37,444 nt of DNA from Actinomycetota bacterium (GCA_020052375.1 JAGVPG010000029.1:1-37444); one strand, 5' to 3'. Shown: positions 28,039 to 36,640, counted from the first letter of the stretch. Numbers and translations are program-made. Notes: a model not told the origin generated them from the letters alone.

Positions 28039-28971
28039 ATGGAAGTAAAAGAGACATATAACGGGACGATACGGGAAGTCACTCTGGGGGTAGGAGATAA
28101 GGCCGTAGTGGTCGGCGGAGAGACGGCCCTTTCCTTCTACACTTTTGAAGGAGTCATGCCGCGGAAACCGGTGATCGCCTTCGACGTATACGACGAAGAG
28201 CCGGCCGACTGGCCGGCGCCGGTGGTCGAACCTTACAAGGATGTCCTGGGTGATCCGGTGAAGTGGGCTTTAAAATGCCAGAACGAATACGGCGCGGATA
28301 TGATCTGCCTACAACTCGTTTCTACAAACCCGACCGGTACGAACAGGGGCGCGGAGGAAGCAGCCCAGACGGTCAAAGCGGTAGCGGATGCGATCGATAT
28401 CCCGATGATCGTCTACGGGACTGCCAACGTGGAGAAGGACACGGAGGTGCTGGCAAAGGCGGCTGAAGCCGCCCAGGGCAAGAATGTACTCATGGGACCG
28501 ATAGAAGAAGATAACTATAAGACGATAGCAGCGGCGGCTCTTGGTTTCCAGCAAGCCGGAGCGACTCACTCGCCTATCGATGTCAATATGGCCAAACAGC
28601 TTAACATACTAGCTACGCAACTGGGACTGAACGCGGACCGCATCATCATAGATCCGACGACAGGAGCTCTTGGGTACGGTCTGGAATACGTTTATTCAGT
28701 CATGGAACGGCTGCGGCTGGCAGCTTTGACTCAGAACGATTCGATGACACAGATGCCGATCATCAATACCATCGGTAAAGAGGTCTGGAAAGCCAAGGAA
28801 GTAAAGGTCTCAACGGAAGAAGAGCCGGCGTGGGGGGACGCGGAAACGCGCGGCATAATATGGGAAGCAATGACCGCCATCGCTTTGTTGATGGCGGGTT
28901 CGGATATTCTGGTAATGCGCCATCCGAAAGCGGTCGAACTGACGCGCGACTTCATGGCGCTAATGGCCTAA
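28039..28971 (+). CDS. acsD: Corrinoid iron-sulfur protein small (delta) subunit
   Basis: 310 residues. A TIM-barrel subunit that pairs with AcsC to carry the methyl-corrinoid. Features include TLGVGDKAVVVGGETALSFYTFEG, PVIAFDVYDEEPADWP, GADMICLQLVSTNPTG, VYGTANVEKDTEVL, IIIDPTTGALGYGLEYVYSVMERLR and DILVMRHPKAVEL, all typical of AcsD/CdhD. TTGGAGG precedes the ATG. It is followed 13 bp later by acsB. Confidence 0.96.
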   Translation: MEVKETYNGTIREVTLGVGDKAVVVGGETALSFYTFEGVMPRKPVIAFDVYDEEPADWPAPVVEPYKDVLGDPVKWALKCQNEYGADMICLQLVSTNPTGTNRGAEEAAQTVKAVADAIDIPMIVYGTANVEKDTEVLAKAAEAAQGKNVLMGPIEEDNYKTIAAAALGFQQAGATHSPIDVNMAKQLNILATQLGLNADRIIIDPTTGALGYGLEYVYSVMERLRLAALTQNDSMTQMPIINTIGKEVWKAKEVKVSTEEEPAWGDAETRGIIWEAMTAIALLMAGSDILVMRHPKAVELTRDFMALMA

Positions 28972-28984
28972 GGGAGGACCAACA

Positions 28985-31186
28985 ATGTCTAAGATAATAG
29001 CGTCGGCGGCTATACGCGGAGCTCACAAGATCGCAAAGCGCGCCGAAGAGTCATTGAATAACGCCATCCAGCAAAAAGGTGAAGCGCAAGAGGTCGGTTT
29101 CCCGGATACCGCCTATTTCATGCCGATCGCGCTCGCCCTACTGGGTGTCAAGGTAAAGACGCTAGGTGATTTCGTGCCGGTGCTGGAAAAGGCCAAGTCG
29201 ATGTTACCGCCCGAACCGGCGGAACATGTATGGCTGCCCTATCTGGGCAATACTTTGGATGCCGGTATCGCCACGATCCTGTTCGAAGAGATCATCGAGG
29301 CGGTCAAGTATATAACCGGACCGAATCCGGTCGACGGTATATGGCTGGGCGCGACCGATGATGTCATCTTGAGGATGCAGGGGATCAAGCTCGTCGACGG
29401 CAGTATGCCGGGTTTCGCCGCCTGTGTCGGCGCCATGCCGACCAACGCGGAAGCGGTCAAGCTGGCGAACGAGCTCAGGGAGAGGAACATCCTTGTATTT
29501 ATGTTCGGCGAGACCAACGGAAAAAGCATGGCCGAACAGCTGGCCGAGGAAGGCGTGCAGATGGGCTGGGATTCATACCTTGTGCCTTACGGCAAGGACA
29601 TAACAGCCGCCAGTTACGCCCTGGGGTTCGCCGCGAGGTCAGCTATGACGTTCGGCGGGATAGCACCCGGCGGGCTTAAAGAAGCTCACGACATCCTACT
29701 CTATAATAAGAACCGCGTTTTCGCGTTCGTCCTGGCTCTCGGCGAGGTGGATGACGAGAAATACGCGACAGCGGCCGGAGCCATAAACTACGGATTCCCG
29801 GTCATAGCGGATACGGACATACCGCAGATACTCCCGACGGGTATCTGTTCTTACGAACACGTAGTCTCCAACGTAACGCACGACAAGATGGTCGAGACGG
29901 CCATAGAGGTCCGCGGCGTCAAGATCAAGATCACCAAGATCAACGTACCGGTGCCTTACGGCCCCGCCTTTGAAGGTGAAAGGATCAGGAAAGAGCAGAT
30001 GTTCGTCGAGTTCGGCGGACAGAAGTCAACAGCTTTCGAGTATCTCAGGATGCGGGACTTGGACGACGTCGAGAACGGCAAGATCGAACTCATCGGTCCC
30101 GATATCGACAAGATGCCCGAAGGTTCGGCACAACCGCTAGGCATAGTCATCGATGTCGCCGGGCGTAAGATGCAGCAGGATTTCGAACCCGTCCTCGAGC
30201 GCCAGGTACACCACATGATAAACGGTGCCGAAGGCGCCTGGCACATGGGACAGCGGGACATGAACTGGCTAAGGATAAGCAAATCGGCCAAGGATAAGGG
30301 ATTCAATGTCAAGCATTTCGGCGAGATACTGCTCGCTAAGCTTATTGACGACTTCCCCGCTATCGTTGATAAAGTACAGGTCACATTATATACGGATGAG
30401 AAAGCAATGGCTGACCTCATGGAAGAGGCGAGACAGGCGTTTATCCATCGCGACGAACGCGTGGCGGGGTTGACGGATGAGTCTGTCGACACGTTCTATA
30501 GCTGTACGCTATGCCAGAGTTTCGCGCCCAATCATGTCTGCATAATCTCACCGCAGCGCCTCGGCCTCTGCGGCGCCTACAACTGGCTCGACGCCAAAGC
30601 GGCTTTCGAGATCAACCCGGCCGGCGCCAATCAACCGATCACCAAGGGAGACACGATCGATGAGCGGCTCGGTCAGTGGACAGGCGTCAACGAGGTAGTG
30701 GTTCAAAAAAGCAATCAGAGCGTTCAGAACATCAGCGCGTATTCGATCATGATCGATCCGGAGACATCATGCGGGTGTTTTGAATGCATAGTAGCGATCC
30801 TTCCCGTGGCCAACGGGGTAATGATAGTCAACCGAGAACATTCGGGCATGACGCCGACAGGCATGAAGTTCTCGACGCTGGCGGGTTCGGTCGGAGGCGG
30901 CGCGCAGACTCCCGGATTCTTAGGTGTCGGCCGCCAGTATATAACGAGCGAGAAGTTCATCTCGGCAGAGGGCGGCTTCAAACGCATAGTATGGATGCCC
31001 AAGGAGCTTAAAGACAGTCTCGAATCGCAGCTCAAGAAGCGCGGGGAATCGATCGGCATTCCCGACTTTTTCGACAAGATAGCGGACGAGACTGTCGGCA
31101 CGACAGAGGATGAGGTGCTGGCATTTATGCAGAAAGTCGGCCACCCGGCGCTCGAGATGGAAAGCATACTGGAATTCAGTGTCTAA
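28985..31186 (+). CDS. acsB: Acetyl-CoA synthase catalytic subunit (beta)
   Basis: 733 residues. It makes acetyl-CoA from methyl-corrinoid, CO and CoA at the Ni-Ni-[4Fe-4S] A-cluster. The cluster ligands are complete: Cys507, Cys510, Cys519 and Cys529 in CTLCQSFAPNHVC...LGLC, and Cys596-Gly-Cys598 in SCGCFEC. This is exactly one residue offset from the Moorella numbering (506, 509, 518, 528, 595, 597). The Phe gating the site (here Phe513) is kept. The full-length N-terminal domain, which in Moorella contacts CO dehydrogenase, is present, unlike the short archaeal form. AGGGAGG precedes the ATG. No CO dehydrogenase gene is adjacent in the window. Confidence 0.98.
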   Translation: MSKIIASAAIRGAHKIAKRAEESLNNAIQQKGEAQEVGFPDTAYFMPIALALLGVKVKTLGDFVPVLEKAKSMLPPEPAEHVWLPYLGNTLDAGIATILFEEIIEAVKYITGPNPVDGIWLGATDDVILRMQGIKLVDGSMPGFAACVGAMPTNAEAVKLANELRERNILVFMFGETNGKSMAEQLAEEGVQMGWDSYLVPYGKDITAASYALGFAARSAMTFGGIAPGGLKEAHDILLYNKNRVFAFVLALGEVDDEKYATAAGAINYGFPVIADTDIPQILPTGICSYEHVVSNVTHDKMVETAIEVRGVKIKITKINVPVPYGPAFEGERIRKEQMFVEFGGQKSTAFEYLRMRDLDDVENGKIELIGPDIDKMPEGSAQPLGIVIDVAGRKMQQDFEPVLERQVHHMINGAEGAWHMGQRDMNWLRISKSAKDKGFNVKHFGEILLAKLIDDFPAIVDKVQVTLYTDEKAMADLMEEARQAFIHRDERVAGLTDESVDTFYSCTLCQSFAPNHVCIISPQRLGLCGAYNWLDAKAAFEINPAGANQPITKGDTIDERLGQWTGVNEVVVQKSNQSVQNISAYSIMIDPETSCGCFECIVAILPVANGVMIVNREHSGMTPTGMKFSTLAGSVGGGAQTPGFLGVGRQYITSEKFISAEGGFKRIVWMPKELKDSLESQLKKRGESIGIPDFFDKIADETVGTTEDEVLAFMQKVGHPALEMESILEFSV

Positions 31187-32676: not shown

Positions 32677-34566
32677 ATGACAAGAGAGTATATGCCGCCT
32701 TGCCAGGCGGCTTGTCCTATCTCAACGGATGTGCAGGGTTATTTGATGCATTCAGCGCTCGGAGATTTCTCCGGCGCATACCTTAACGCGCGCCTGACCA
32801 ATCCTTTTATTTCTTCTTGCGGATTCATCTGTTTTCATCCTTGCGAAGAGAAATGCCGGCGCGAGGGTGTCGACCGCGCTCTTTCCGTGATGGCCCTGAA
32901 AAGAGCGGCATCCGAATTGGGACGGCACGCAACTGTCGAAAATCAAGCTAAGAAGACAGGCAAAAAGATCGCCGTTATCGGAGGCGGCCCCGCGGGCCTT
33001 ACCGCGGCACAGGACCTGTGTATTCTCGGACATGATGTAACGGTGTTTGAGCGTGAATCTAAAGCCGGCGGCATGCTGAGCCAGACGATCCCGAAGTACC
33101 GCCTGCCTCGCGAAGCCGTCGAAGACGACATAAGATGGATAGAATCGGCGGGTGTGAAGCTTAAGACCGGCAAAGAAGCCGGTAAGGATTTTATGATCGA
33201 AGATCTTAAGAACCAGGGGTTCGAAGTGACCCTGATAGCGACAGGACTCCCTGTAAGTCGCAGCTTACCGGTATTTCCGGATGAACATAGATCGATCTAT
33301 CTGGCATTACCGTTTTTAAAAGCCGTAGCAAACGGCGAACGGCCGAAGTTGGGAGATGAAGTCATCGTCGTCGGGGGAGGCAATGTCGCCATCGACGTCG
33401 CCAGGTCAGCAAAAAGGCTGGGCGTAAAACAAGTCAAGTTGGTCTGCCTTGAGTCGCGCGAGGAGATGCCCGCGCATTCATGGGAGATCGAAGAAGCCGC
33501 CGAAGAGGGAATCGAGATGAACTGCTGTTTCGGGCCCTACGAAGTGATGGGCGGCGAACCCATGGAAGGCCTTAGGTGTCAAGCGGTAAAGAGCGTTTTC
33601 GATAGAGACGGTAGGTTCAACCCGACATTCTTTGAGGACAAATTCAACGAGGTCGGCGGGGACACCATAATAGTCTCGATCGGCCAGGGTAGAGATGTGT
33701 CATGGCTGGGTGACAGCGCGCAAGCAGTCTTGAACGACGAGGTGGACGGGGTGTTTTCTGCGGGTGAGTTTGCCGTCGGGCCAGGGGGTTGCGTGGACGC
33801 GATGAAGAACGGCCACACGGCGGCGGTTAAGATCGATGAATATCTGACCGGTGAGGTGATGGAAACCGGCGACCAAAAAGTCCTGGGTGAACTACCCGAG
33901 CGCATGAGGGAACAGGTCAAAGTAAGAGAGAGGATCGAACGGGATATACGCCCGGCATTGGAAAGGATCGATGACTTCGATCTGTTCGAGGCCGGTTATG
34001 CACAGAAATATGCCTGCAAGGAGGCTCTCAGATGTATGTCTTGCGCCGCGGGAGCGGTGGTCGATAAAGGGAAATGCGTGGCGTGCCTCACATGTGTAAG
34101 AGTGTGCCCGTATGAGATCCCCAAGATAGGTCCCGAGTCGGTCGCCGTTATAGATCCGGAAGAATGCCAGGCGTGCGGCATATGCATAACAGAGTGTCCG
34201 GCGCTGGCTATCGGTTTCCGGCGCGACCAGGAAGAGCGGCTGTTCAAAGCTATCGAAGAAGCGGCGTCCTCTTCAGCGGGCATCGATTTCTACTGCCGGA
34301 ACCGCTTGTTCTTTGAGGACGAAAAGACTCAAAAGGATAGAGCAAGGATAAACGTCACGTGCATCGCGCATGTCAGCGCCCGCGCGATACTTAAGGCATA
34401 CGAGCTGGGAGCGCAGGCGGTTACGCTGTACGTATGCCCGGGCGATGAATGTTTCTATAAGGAAGGGCATGAATGGGCGCAAGACCGCGTTCAAAATGTG
34501 AAGTCGGTACTGGCGGCAGCCGGTTACGAACCGGATTCGCTGACATATAAGGATGAAGTCTCATGA
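32677..34566 (+). CDS. GltD-like flavoprotein fused to two [4Fe-4S] motifs and an MvhD-like domain
   Basis: 629 residues. Residues 1-70: Fer4_20-type N-terminus with Cys9, 13, 48, 52, 56, 60. Residues 94-420: GltD/NfnB-type flavoprotein with FAD motif IAVIGGGPAGLTAAQ and NAD(P) motif VIVVGGGNVAIDVARSA. Residues about 465-510: two ferredoxin motifs, CVACLTCVRVCP and CQACGICITECP. Residues about 535-629: a domain resembling MvhD, with VTCIAHVSARAILKAYELGAQAVTLYVCPGDECFYKEG, including a pair of MvhD-type Cys. MvhD normally links hydrogenase to heterodisulfide reductase. The gene overlaps metV by 4 bp, so it probably feeds NAD(P)H electrons to the methylene-THF reductase (inference). No HdrBC or hydrogenase is nearby. 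Confidence 0.88.
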   Translation: MTREYMPPCQAACPISTDVQGYLMHSALGDFSGAYLNARLTNPFISSCGFICFHPCEEKCRREGVDRALSVMALKRAASELGRHATVENQAKKTGKKIAVIGGGPAGLTAAQDLCILGHDVTVFERESKAGGMLSQTIPKYRLPREAVEDDIRWIESAGVKLKTGKEAGKDFMIEDLKNQGFEVTLIATGLPVSRSLPVFPDEHRSIYLALPFLKAVANGERPKLGDEVIVVGGGNVAIDVARSAKRLGVKQVKLVCLESREEMPAHSWEIEEAAEEGIEMNCCFGPYEVMGGEPMEGLRCQAVKSVFDRDGRFNPTFFEDKFNEVGGDTIIVSIGQGRDVSWLGDSAQAVLNDEVDGVFSAGEFAVGPGGCVDAMKNGHTAAVKIDEYLTGEVMETGDQKVLGELPERMREQVKVRERIERDIRPALERIDDFDLFEAGYAQKYACKEALRCMSCAAGAVVDKGKCVACLTCVRVCPYEIPKIGPESVAVIDPEECQACGICITECPALAIGFRRDQEERLFKAIEEAASSSAGIDFYCRNRLFFEDEKTQKDRARINVTCIAHVSARAILKAYELGAQAVTLYVCPGDECFYKEGHEWAQDRVQNVKSVLAAAGYEPDSLTYKDEVS

Positions 34567-35255
34567 TCATAGGAGAAAAGAAGCCGCTTGACGAGATCTT
34601 GGAAATGATCTCAGAGTATAAGAAAGTATTGATAGCCGGATGCGGCACATGTGTCACCATCTCGTATGCCGGGGGTGAAAAAGAGGCGGCAGAGCTCGCT
34701 TCAGCAATAAAGATGGCAGACAAAAAGGCCGGCGTAAAGAGAGAGATCCGGGAACTGACTCCCTTAAGGCAATGCGAAGTAGAGTATGTCCGGGAGATGG
34801 AAGACCAGGTCAAATGGTCTGACGTGGTATTGTCGCTGGCGTGCGGAGTCGGAGTCCAGACGATGGCCGATCAGTTTTCGGGAAAGCGCGTCCTGCCGGG
34901 CGTCAACACGATGATGCTGGGAAGCCACGGCGCCGACCGCGTGTTCAAGGAATACTGCGGCGCCTGCGGCGATTGCATATTAGACGAAACGGGTGGGATA
35001 TGTCCTATCGTCAGATGTTCTAAAAGCATGCTCAACGGTCCATGCGGCGGTTCCTCGAACGGCAAGTGCGAGGTGTCGCCGGAAATCGAATGCGGCTGGC
35101 AGCTCATATACGACAAATTGAAAGAGCTGAAGAAAGCGGAGGAATGGGACGTGAACCGGCCGCCGAAAGACTGGCGATCGAGCTGGCACGGAGGACCGAG
35201 AATAGTGAATAAGGAAAGCGGAAAAAGGAAAGCGGAAAGTGAAGAGCGGGAGTAA
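34563..35255 (+). CDS. metV: Methylene-THF reductase zinc/iron-sulfur subunit MetV
   Basis: 230 residues. It matches the MetV family with VLIAGCGTCVTISYAGGEKEA near the N-terminus and a Cys-rich core: EYCGACGDCILDETGGICPIVRCSKSMLNGPCGGSSNGKCEV...CGW. MetV binds a [4Fe-4S] cluster and stabilises MetF in acetogens. The start overlaps the stop of the flavoprotein gene (ATGA). The last 15 residues (NKESGKRKAESEERE) are encoded by a GGAAAGCGGAAA purine repeat and look like an extension picked up from intergenic repeat sequence. The metF start lies inside this tail. Confidence 0.95.
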   Translation: MIIGEKKPLDEILEMISEYKKVLIAGCGTCVTISYAGGEKEAAELASAIKMADKKAGVKREIRELTPLRQCEVEYVREMEDQVKWSDVVLSLACGVGVQTMADQFSGKRVLPGVNTMMLGSHGADRVFKEYCGACGDCILDETGGICPIVRCSKSMLNGPCGGSSNGKCEVSPEIECGWQLIYDKLKELKKAEEWDVNRPPKDWRSSWHGGPRIVNKESGKRKAESEERE

Positions 35256-36153
35256 TTTAGAGAAGAAGTTGAATAGTGGAAAATTCGCGGTGACGGCCGA
35301 GTTGGGACCGCCACGGAACTGCGATATGTCGGTCGTCGAGGAGAAGGCGAAGATACTCAAAGGATATGCCGACGCGGTAAACATCACCGATTGCCAGACG
35401 GCTATCGTCAGGATGTCGTCGATAACGTCCGCTGTGGCTTTGATGAAACAAGGCCTTGAGCCGGTGATCCAGATGACGTGCCGTGACCGCAACCGTATCG
35501 CTATACAGAGTGAGATACTCGGCGCAGCGGGACTTGGTGTAAGGAACATGTTATGCCTGACCGGCGATCACCAGAAGTTCGGAGACCACCCGGAGGCAAA
35601 AGGTGTCTGGGACTTAGACTCGATACAATTAATAGCAGTGGTCAAGAAGATGCGGGATGAGCATCTGCTCTCCAGCGGTTACGACATGGAGAAACCGGTA
35701 CAGATGTTCATAGGCGCAGCCGAGAACCCGTTCGCCGATCCTTTTGAATGCCGGGCGGCCCGCCTTGAGAAAAAGGTGGAAGCGGGAGTCGACTTCATCC
35801 AGACGCAGATAGTCTACAATATCGAGAAATTCGAAAAGTGGATGGAAGAGGTAAGAAAAAGAGGCCTTCACGAACGGGCCTATATAACCGTTGGTGTTAC
35901 TCCGCTCAAGTCGATCGGCATGGCCAGATATATGAAATCGAATGTCCCGGGGCTGGATGTCCCCGACAGTTATATAGAACGTCTTAGCAAGGCCAAAGAA
36001 GACGGAAAAGACCTGAAACAGGAAGGTATTCAGGTAGCCATCGATATCATAGATAGGGTAAGAAAGATCCCGGGTGTCAAGGGGATACACATCATGGCGA
36101 TCGAATGGGAGGAAGCGGTACCCGAGATCGTCAAGGGTGCCGGATTGAAATAG
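35239..36153 (+). CDS. metF: Methylenetetrahydrofolate reductase catalytic subunit
   Basis: 304 residues, an FAD-containing TIM barrel reducing methylene-THF to methyl-THF. Features: FAVTAELGPPRNCD (Glu near the flavin), NITDCQTAIVRMSS, IQMTCRDRNRIAIQSEILGAAGLGVRNMLCLTGDH (folate site) and GVDFIQTQIVYNIEKFEKW. The start is GTG at 35239, 17 bp inside metV, with GGAAAG upstream. Overlapping genes point to a tight MetV-MetF complex. The C-terminus lacks the regulatory domain of eukaryotic enzymes, as expected. Confidence 0.96.
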   Translation: MKSGSNLEKKLNSGKFAVTAELGPPRNCDMSVVEEKAKILKGYADAVNITDCQTAIVRMSSITSAVALMKQGLEPVIQMTCRDRNRIAIQSEILGAAGLGVRNMLCLTGDHQKFGDHPEAKGVWDLDSIQLIAVVKKMRDEHLLSSGYDMEKPVQMFIGAAENPFADPFECRAARLEKKVEAGVDFIQTQIVYNIEKFEKWMEEVRKRGLHERAYITVGVTPLKSIGMARYMKSNVPGLDVPDSYIERLSKAKEDGKDLKQEGIQVAIDIIDRVRKIPGVKGIHIMAIEWEEAVPEIVKGAGLK

Positions 36154-36163
36154 GAGGACGACG

Positions 36164-36640
36164 ATAAACGAGCTGACTACGATCATCGATAAGTATAGAG
36201 ATAGGAAAGGCGCCGTGATCCCGCTATTACAGGAGATACAAGCGCATTACGGGTACCTGGACGAAAAGGTGATGCGGAAAGCCTCGTCCAGTCTTGGGAT
36301 ACCGCTGAGCGACCTCTATGGCGTGGCCACTTTCTATTCACAGTTCTCTCTCGAGAAGACCGGTTTATATATAGTAAGGGTCTGCCACGGTACGGCATGC
36401 CATGTAAACGGGGCAAGGGACATTACAGAAGCGATCAGAGAGAAACTGGGCATAGAAGAGGACGAGACGACCGGCGACGGCAGGTTTACGCTCAAGACGG
36501 TCGCCTGTCTTGGCGCGTGCAGCTTGTCGCCGGCGATGATCATAAACGATACGGTATACGGCAGGCTGACCAAGAAAAAAGTGACACAGATAATCACCAG
36601 GTTGATGGAGGAAAACAATAAGAAAATCCTTAAGAAATAG
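36164..36640 (+). CDS. NuoE-like thioredoxin-fold [2Fe-2S] protein, apparent AUA start
   Basis: 158 residues if started at ATA 36164, which sits 6 nt after a perfect AGGAGG. The first in-frame conventional start is GTG 36215, but the 17 residues before it (NELTTIIDKYRDRKGAVIP) align with the usual NuoE N-terminal helix, and GTG has no ribosome binding site. So either AUA initiates or an ATG has mutated or been misread. The [2Fe-2S] ligands are Cys74, Cys79 (CHGTAC), Cys115 and Cys119 (CLGACS). Such subunits normally dock on a NuoF NADH-oxidising flavoprotein, which is absent here; the GltD-MvhD protein may be the partner (inference). It lies between metF and acsE. Confidence 0.9.
   Translation: MNELTTIIDKYRDRKGAVIPLLQEIQAHYGYLDEKVMRKASSSLGIPLSDLYGVATFYSQFSLEKTGLYIVRVCHGTACHVNGARDITEAIREKLGIEEDETTGDGRFTLKTVACLGACSLSPAMIINDTVYGRLTKKKVTQIITRLMEENNKKILKK

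Follow-up and report, generated by a model that had tools for sequence, protein, structure and literature searches.

Methylenetetrahydrofolate (methylene-THF) reductases (MTHFRs) of acetogens have been sorted into four types, namely MetF alone, MetVF (type II), MetVF-RnfC2 (type III) and MetVF-HdrCBA-MvhD (type IV) (PMC8760232). NAD(P)H is not a donor for MetVF on its own, and it is the addition of the RnfC2 NADH module that gives NADH dependence (PMC8760232). In the Moorella-type enzyme HdrA is the subunit that oxidises NADH (PMC8760232), and the Moorella HdrA includes a GltD domain in which there are sites for FAD and NAD(P)H (PMC9430772). The way in which the MetF step is coupled to energy conservation in acetogens is a long-standing open question. 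We have analysed a contig of an Actinomycetota bacterium (JAGVPG010000029.1; 37,444 nucleotides, referred to here as the window) in which one gene, coding for a 629-residue fusion of GltD, ferredoxin and MvhD-like domains, is followed by metV, metF and a gene for a NuoE-type [2Fe-2S] protein. We believe, with a probability of roughly 0.6, that the fusion, MetV and MetF constitute a soluble, linear, non-bifurcating NADH:methylene-THF reductase of the Wood-Ljungdahl pathway, and that the NuoE-type protein is not one of its subunits.

The fusion protein and its MetVF partners

All four open reading frames (ORFs) of the region 32677-36640 were present at the positions first noted, and each had a family match, which confirms the four adjacent or overlapping genes of the preliminary description. 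In a Pfam profile search MetV matched PF12225 (E-value 7e-35), MetF matched PF02219 (4e-43) and the fourth gene matched PF01257, the NuoE-type family (6e-49). The domain make-up proposed for the 629-residue flavoprotein was likewise borne out, with matches above the Pfam gathering scores to Fer4_20 (the N-terminal iron-sulphur, Fe-S, domain), Pyr_redox_2, two Fer4 and, at residues 555-624, FlpD/MvhD, this last being the sole FlpD match in the recovered genome. The best NCBIfam match, PRK12771, covers residues 4-514 with 417 bits (below its 516 cut-off) and leaves the MvhD part outside. Sixteen cysteines were invariant in an alignment of 29 fusions (C9, C13, C52, C56, C60, C453, C456, the eight of the ferredoxin domain and C540); among the others of the MvhD domain, C562 and C587 were nearly invariant and C592 was less conserved. 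The pair C453/C456 resembles the RCxxC motif found at the N terminus of classic GltD and may complete a second cluster of the N-terminal type.

The AlphaFold2 model of the fusion was confident as a single body (predicted local distance difference test, pLDDT, 90.3; predicted template modelling score, pTM, 0.89), and a structure search with it gave NfnABC and StnC/StnABC as the nearest folds (best matches 9bov, 9n5u and 8oh5). The fusion has the GltD fold with its FAD and NAD(P)H motifs, and this GltD-type domain is its only flavin domain, with a single flavin site; the TrxR-like flavin domains of HdrA are absent. At the site that would hold the NAD(P) ribose, the loop reads CLE in 30 of the 34 fusions (the window and 29 relatives) and YRR in four (L038, L040, L054, L064), and in the alignment the solved NADPH-linked homologues have YRR-like loops. 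The replacement of the YRR-like loop of NADPH enzymes by an acidic CLE suggests that NADH is the likelier donor for the enzyme of the window.

The window is the complete contig C15 of a 1.64 Mb genome (35 contigs, 95% complete), and HdrABC and Rnf are absent from what was recovered of it. A profile search of this genome gave no RnfC_N match, its only CCG-domain protein is DsrK/HmeD-like and lies next to a cytochrome b-like protein, and no separate HdrA is encoded in the window. It had been stated before that HdrABC, RnfC2 and NuoF were all missing nearby; this holds within the window, but not for NuoF in the wider genome, where its sole copy ends contig C7.

Distribution and phylogeny of the fusion-MetV pair

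With the ferredoxin-MvhD half as query, the complete fusion was found in 34 out of 397 sampled Actinomycetota genomes, MetV (PF12225) being present in 114 of them. MetV comes directly after the fusion in 32 of the 32 genomes whose contig continues (in G376 MetV is itself cut by the contig end); in G356 and G029 the contig stops after the fusion and MetV begins another contig. This constant adjacency and the domain matches agree well with the earlier proposal that the flavin, ferredoxin and MvhD roles are gathered in one chain. In a wider survey we examined the neighbourhoods of the best 80 of 583 confirmed MetV relatives of the genome collection. Most of these 80 sit with HdrA, MvhD and HdrBC, as in Moorella, and many of the HdrAs of such type IV loci, ca. 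1,500 residues long, carry a GltD module, often with the CLE site. The same 80 included the fusion next to MetV in Actinomycetota (L076, L109), Bacillota (L103), Nitrospirota (L143), anammox Planctomycetota (L129, L140) and Dehalococcoidia (L094, cut at the contig start).

The fusion-MetV-MetF trio is therefore real and conserved and no chance arrangement, as it recurs in dozens of genomes. What does not survive is the notion of an unusual composition of four genes acting as a unit, since the trio recurs widely and most fusion loci have no NuoE. We found no description of the GltD-MvhD-MetVF combination in a literature search limited to open-licence papers. The legend of a figure of neighbourhoods of CO dehydrogenase/acetyl-CoA synthase (CODH/ACS) genes names gltD in Actinobacteria clades (PMC7325909), and the fusion gene may already be drawn in that figure without comment.

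Two variants were seen along the way. In the anammox loci L129 and L140 (one of them from Candidatus Kuenenia hertensis) a cysteine of the MvhD domain is replaced by glycine, and in L096, L136, L144 and L145 (mostly Bacillota) an HdrA-like flavoprotein is fused to ferredoxin and MvhD, without GltD, and adjoins MetV.

In the GltD tree the window falls within a clade of fusions that has 30 rows (support 100/99); the tree needs four label changes, and a single clade of all fusions was not rejected (approximately unbiased test, p 0.08). In the MetV tree the fusion-linked and HdrA-linked proteins interleave, with seven changes of which at least three are forced; for example, L143 (fusion) stands beside L152 and L153 (HdrA), and the f21 fusions beside L134 (HdrA). 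Given this interleaving, it looks as if partners had been exchanged, the fusion and HdrABC-MvhD being alternative electron inputs to MetV.

A predicted NADH-dependent reductase

If the conserved ligands are loaded with their cofactors and the three proteins form a complex, NADH would give up its electrons to the GltD FAD, and these would travel through the N-terminal-type Fe-S clusters to the two-cluster ferredoxin domain, from there to the MvhD cluster and on to MetV, whose clusters would reduce the MetF flavin and through it methylene-THF to methyl-THF. The MvhD domain would be the docking and transfer piece toward MetV, as in the Moorella-type complex, and the flavin domains of HdrA together with HdrBC would be dispensed with, leaving a stripped-down relative of the type IV MTHFR. 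A linear NADH:methylene-THF reductase seems to us the simplest reading because MetVF, making no use of NAD(P)H by itself, gains this capacity from an added NADH module. The model of MetV (pLDDT 82) gave generic fold matches only, none below E 0.001, and we saw no natural MvhD-MetV fusion.

Several points limit the case for a linear NADH-dependent trio. By sequence, MetV has no solved relative in the PDB. In the two anammox loci MetF does not adjoin the fusion and MetV. In L054 an HdrC-HdrB-like gene comes right after MetF (L054:5090-6487), so that a second branch may exist in some enzymes of the fusion kind; this locus possibly stands midway between type IV and the fusion type. In NfnB the flavin that bifurcates is the one of the GltD type, and the arginine proposed to tune it there is present, as R142, in all 29 aligned fusions. 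Finally, as regards the exclusion of NuoE, the ends of C15 and C7 have no sequence overlap, and the NuoE-NuoF junction discussed below rests on synteny.

Some of these points would fit an alternative in which the GltD FAD bifurcates the electrons of NADH, downhill to methylene-THF and uphill to ferredoxin, so that the MetF step would yield reduced ferredoxin. The flavin of the GltD-like StnC bifurcates as that of NfnB does (PMC5861303, PMC7483475), both NfnABC and StnABC are nearest folds of the fusion, the type IV enzyme has been proposed to bifurcate (PMC8760232), and the invariant R142 and the HdrBC-like gene added in L054 point the same way. However, the fusion has a single flavin site and lacks the HdrA flavin domain, the trio includes no NfnA or NuoEF-type partner for a second branch, and the genome is without Rnf, one of the usual outlets of reduced ferredoxin. 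We also considered R142 as a diagnostic of bifurcation and rejected it, as the equivalent arginine is found in the other aligned solved GltD-like chains. Bifurcation appears to us unlikely, and more doubtful still is a fifth widespread class of MTHFR in which the single GltD-ferredoxin-MvhD chain would bifurcate NADH to methylene-THF and ferredoxin without HdrABC. If true, Actinomycetota of small genome size, and other anaerobes as well, would conserve energy at the MetF step.

We hold it as unlikely as bifurcation that the physiological donor is NADPH, or reduced ferredoxin entering at the ferredoxin domain, or that the reaction runs in reverse and makes NAD(P)H from methyl-THF. The NADPH-type YRR site of four fusions speaks for such a role, as does the fact that reduced ferredoxin can serve MetVF enzymes of type II as donor in vitro (PMC8760232). 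On the other hand, the ribose site reads CLE in the window and in 29 relatives, and a pyridine-nucleotide module that is always attached would be needless in an enzyme working with ferredoxin only.

NuoE and the formate dehydrogenase

The preliminary description had included the NuoE-type protein in the reductase module, as an orphan subunit that could help to feed or bifurcate electrons without NuoF. Its gene follows metF by about 10 bases, and no NuoF is found in the window. The last gene, AcsE, ends 9 bases before the end of C15 (37444) and, the window being the entire contig, genes beyond AcsE are not visible in it. A family-by-family profile search of the whole genome returned only one NuoE-family protein, that of the window, and one NuoF-family protein, located at the very end of contig C7 with its first codons cut off. 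This NuoF runs into a NuoG-like/FdhF pair that forms a single frame with an in-frame TGA at CARL-U-HAPTV (L004:4479-7166, minus strand). A TGA is found at the identical position of the formate dehydrogenase in L043, L051, L054 and L062, and the C7 enzyme is, judging from this frame, a selenocysteine-containing formate dehydrogenase, i.e., a predicted selenoprotein.

Synteny leads to the same partner. The order in L054 is fusion, MetV, MetF, the HdrC-HdrB-like gene, NuoE, AcsE, NuoF, a short ORF and NuoG/FdhF, and the same-order relatives L035 and L036 have AcsE, NuoE, NuoF, with L040 similar. We looked for fusion and metVF co-occurring with a nuoE that lacks nuoF; NuoE was near the fusion in 4 of 33 fusion-bearing relatives, and NuoF lay within two genes in all four. 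The closest solved relatives of the window NuoE in a PDB search were NfnC and HydC-kind hydrogenase subunits, i.e., NuoE-type partners of NuoF homologues. Because the genome has a single NuoE and a single NuoF, the latter cut at a contig end, and because of the synteny and of the many fusion loci without NuoE, the window NuoE very probably belongs to the formate dehydrogenase, as its small subunit, and not to the reductase, and a part for it as an orphan reductase subunit is hard to credit. As synteny joins them and both contig ends stop at the expected junction, NuoF and the selenocysteine formate dehydrogenase most likely lie directly beyond the end of C15. A nuoF just past the window, which had been named beforehand as an argument against the four-gene module, is thus very probably there, going by the genome counts, the truncated NuoF and the synteny.

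The NuoE frame extends upstream (36152-36214), where a perfect AGGAGG (36152-36157) is followed by an ATA codon at 36164. Since the family match starts at 36176, before the GTG at 36215, the protein probably starts at the ATA (ca. 158 residues) and not at the GTG.

Genomic setting

That the fusion might serve the corrinoid proteins of CODH/ACS (e.g., their reductive activation), with MetV next to it by operon packing, has very little to recommend it. Fusion-MetV loci are usually beside AcsBCD, and the fusion comes after AcsC in the window and most loci. However, MetV adjoins the fusion wherever this can be tested, even in loci where the fusion has no AcsC beside it (L049, L055, L103, L129, L140, L143), and its MvhD domain corresponds to the known partner in MetVF-HdrABC-MvhD. 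The coordinates of the features are collected in Table 1.

Table 1. Features of the fusion-MetVF locus in the window, with the evidence for each.
Feature	Position	Strand	Evidence
GltD-ferredoxin-MvhD fusion, 629 residues; proposed NADH-oxidising electron-input subunit	32677..34566	+	Pfam, NCBIfam and PDB matches; AlphaFold2 model; nearest folds NfnABC and StnC
N-terminal Fe-S motif, residues 9-60; C9, C13, C52, C56, C60 invariant	32701..32856	+	Alignment of 29 fusions
FAD/NAD(P)H domain (Pyr_redox_2), ca. residues 97-391	32965..33849	+	Pfam match; alignment with solved homologues
CLE at the NAD(P) ribose site, residues 257-259	33445..33453	+	30 of 34 fusions; many MetV-linked HdrA-GltD proteins
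C453-x-x-C456, invariant	34033..34044	+	Alignment of 29 fusions
Two-[4Fe-4S] ferredoxin domain, residues 467-507, eight cysteines	34075..34197	+	Pfam; cysteine conservation
MvhD/FlpD-like domain with C540, C562, C587, C592	34279..34563	+	FlpD match, 49.5 bits; cysteine conservation
MetV, Fe-S subunit of methylene-THF reductase; start overlaps the fusion stop	34563..35255	+	PF12225; 12 conserved cysteines
MetF, flavin subunit with methylene-THF site; overlaps the MetV end	35239..36153	+	PF02219; only MetF in the genome
NuoE-type [2Fe-2S] protein, probable ATA start; very probably of the formate dehydrogenase	36164..36640	+	Family match; genome counts; synteny
AcsE, methyl-THF:corrinoid methyltransferase; final gene before the contig end	36662..37435	+	NCBIfam PRK07535, above cut-off

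Between AcsD and AcsB (28039-31186) no CO dehydrogenase gene is found in the window, nor in L035 and L036, and the f18 and f21 relatives have an ORF of ca. 650 residues between these two genes (Prismane/CODH in L043). The two CooS-type CO dehydrogenases of the window genome are on contig C29. The genome also encodes a single NiFe hydrogenase of the group-1 type, whose small subunit is of the twin-arginine kind and which comes with a cytochrome b (G000 C3:28493-29893), and a DsrMK-like pair on contig C8 (G000 C8:7033-7302). The hydrogenase with its cytochrome b, the CooS pair, the DsrMK-like pair and the absence of Rnf suggest a quinone-linked respiration beside the Wood-Ljungdahl pathway.

Comparison with known systems

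A fusion-MetVF class would add a fifth partner type to the four described for MTHFRs (PMC8760232), and the "gltD" annotations near CODH/ACS genes would become a usable marker for it. The formate dehydrogenase to which we assign NuoE shares the set of NuoE, NuoF and NuoG-like/FdhF with the bifurcating HylABC-FdhF2, the window genome having the in-frame TGA in its enzyme; the difference is that the set is here apparently interrupted by AcsE and a contig break. With NfnB, StnC and NfnABC the fusion has in common the GltD fold with the FAD and NAD(P)H site, but it carries an MvhD tail in place of a NuoG-like or other one, CLE and not YRR, and a link to MetVF instead of NuoEF or NfnA.

Among the reductases, the type III RnfC2-MetVF enzyme of Acetobacterium woodii also consists of MetVF with an added NADH-oxidising flavin/Fe-S subunit, and a linear reaction is what we predict for the window; the input subunit is, however, GltD-ferredoxin-MvhD and not of the RnfC type. 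Type IV (Moorella thermoacetica, Sporomusa ovata) is closer, sharing MetVF, the MvhD-type [2Fe-2S] protein, a ferredoxin domain and the GltD domain of the Moorella HdrA (PMC9430772, PMC8760232). As in type IV, MetV and MetF are encoded together and an MvhD-type domain stands beside MetV, here as the C-terminal part of the fusion. In the window and the recovered genome, on the other hand, the trio comes without HdrB, HdrC and the TrxR-like flavin domains of HdrA, and GltD, ferredoxin and MvhD are fused in one chain. The input subunit resembles type IV reduced to its GltD, ferredoxin and MvhD parts, with the HdrA flavins taken away, and a comparison of the two enzymes would reveal what these flavins contribute.

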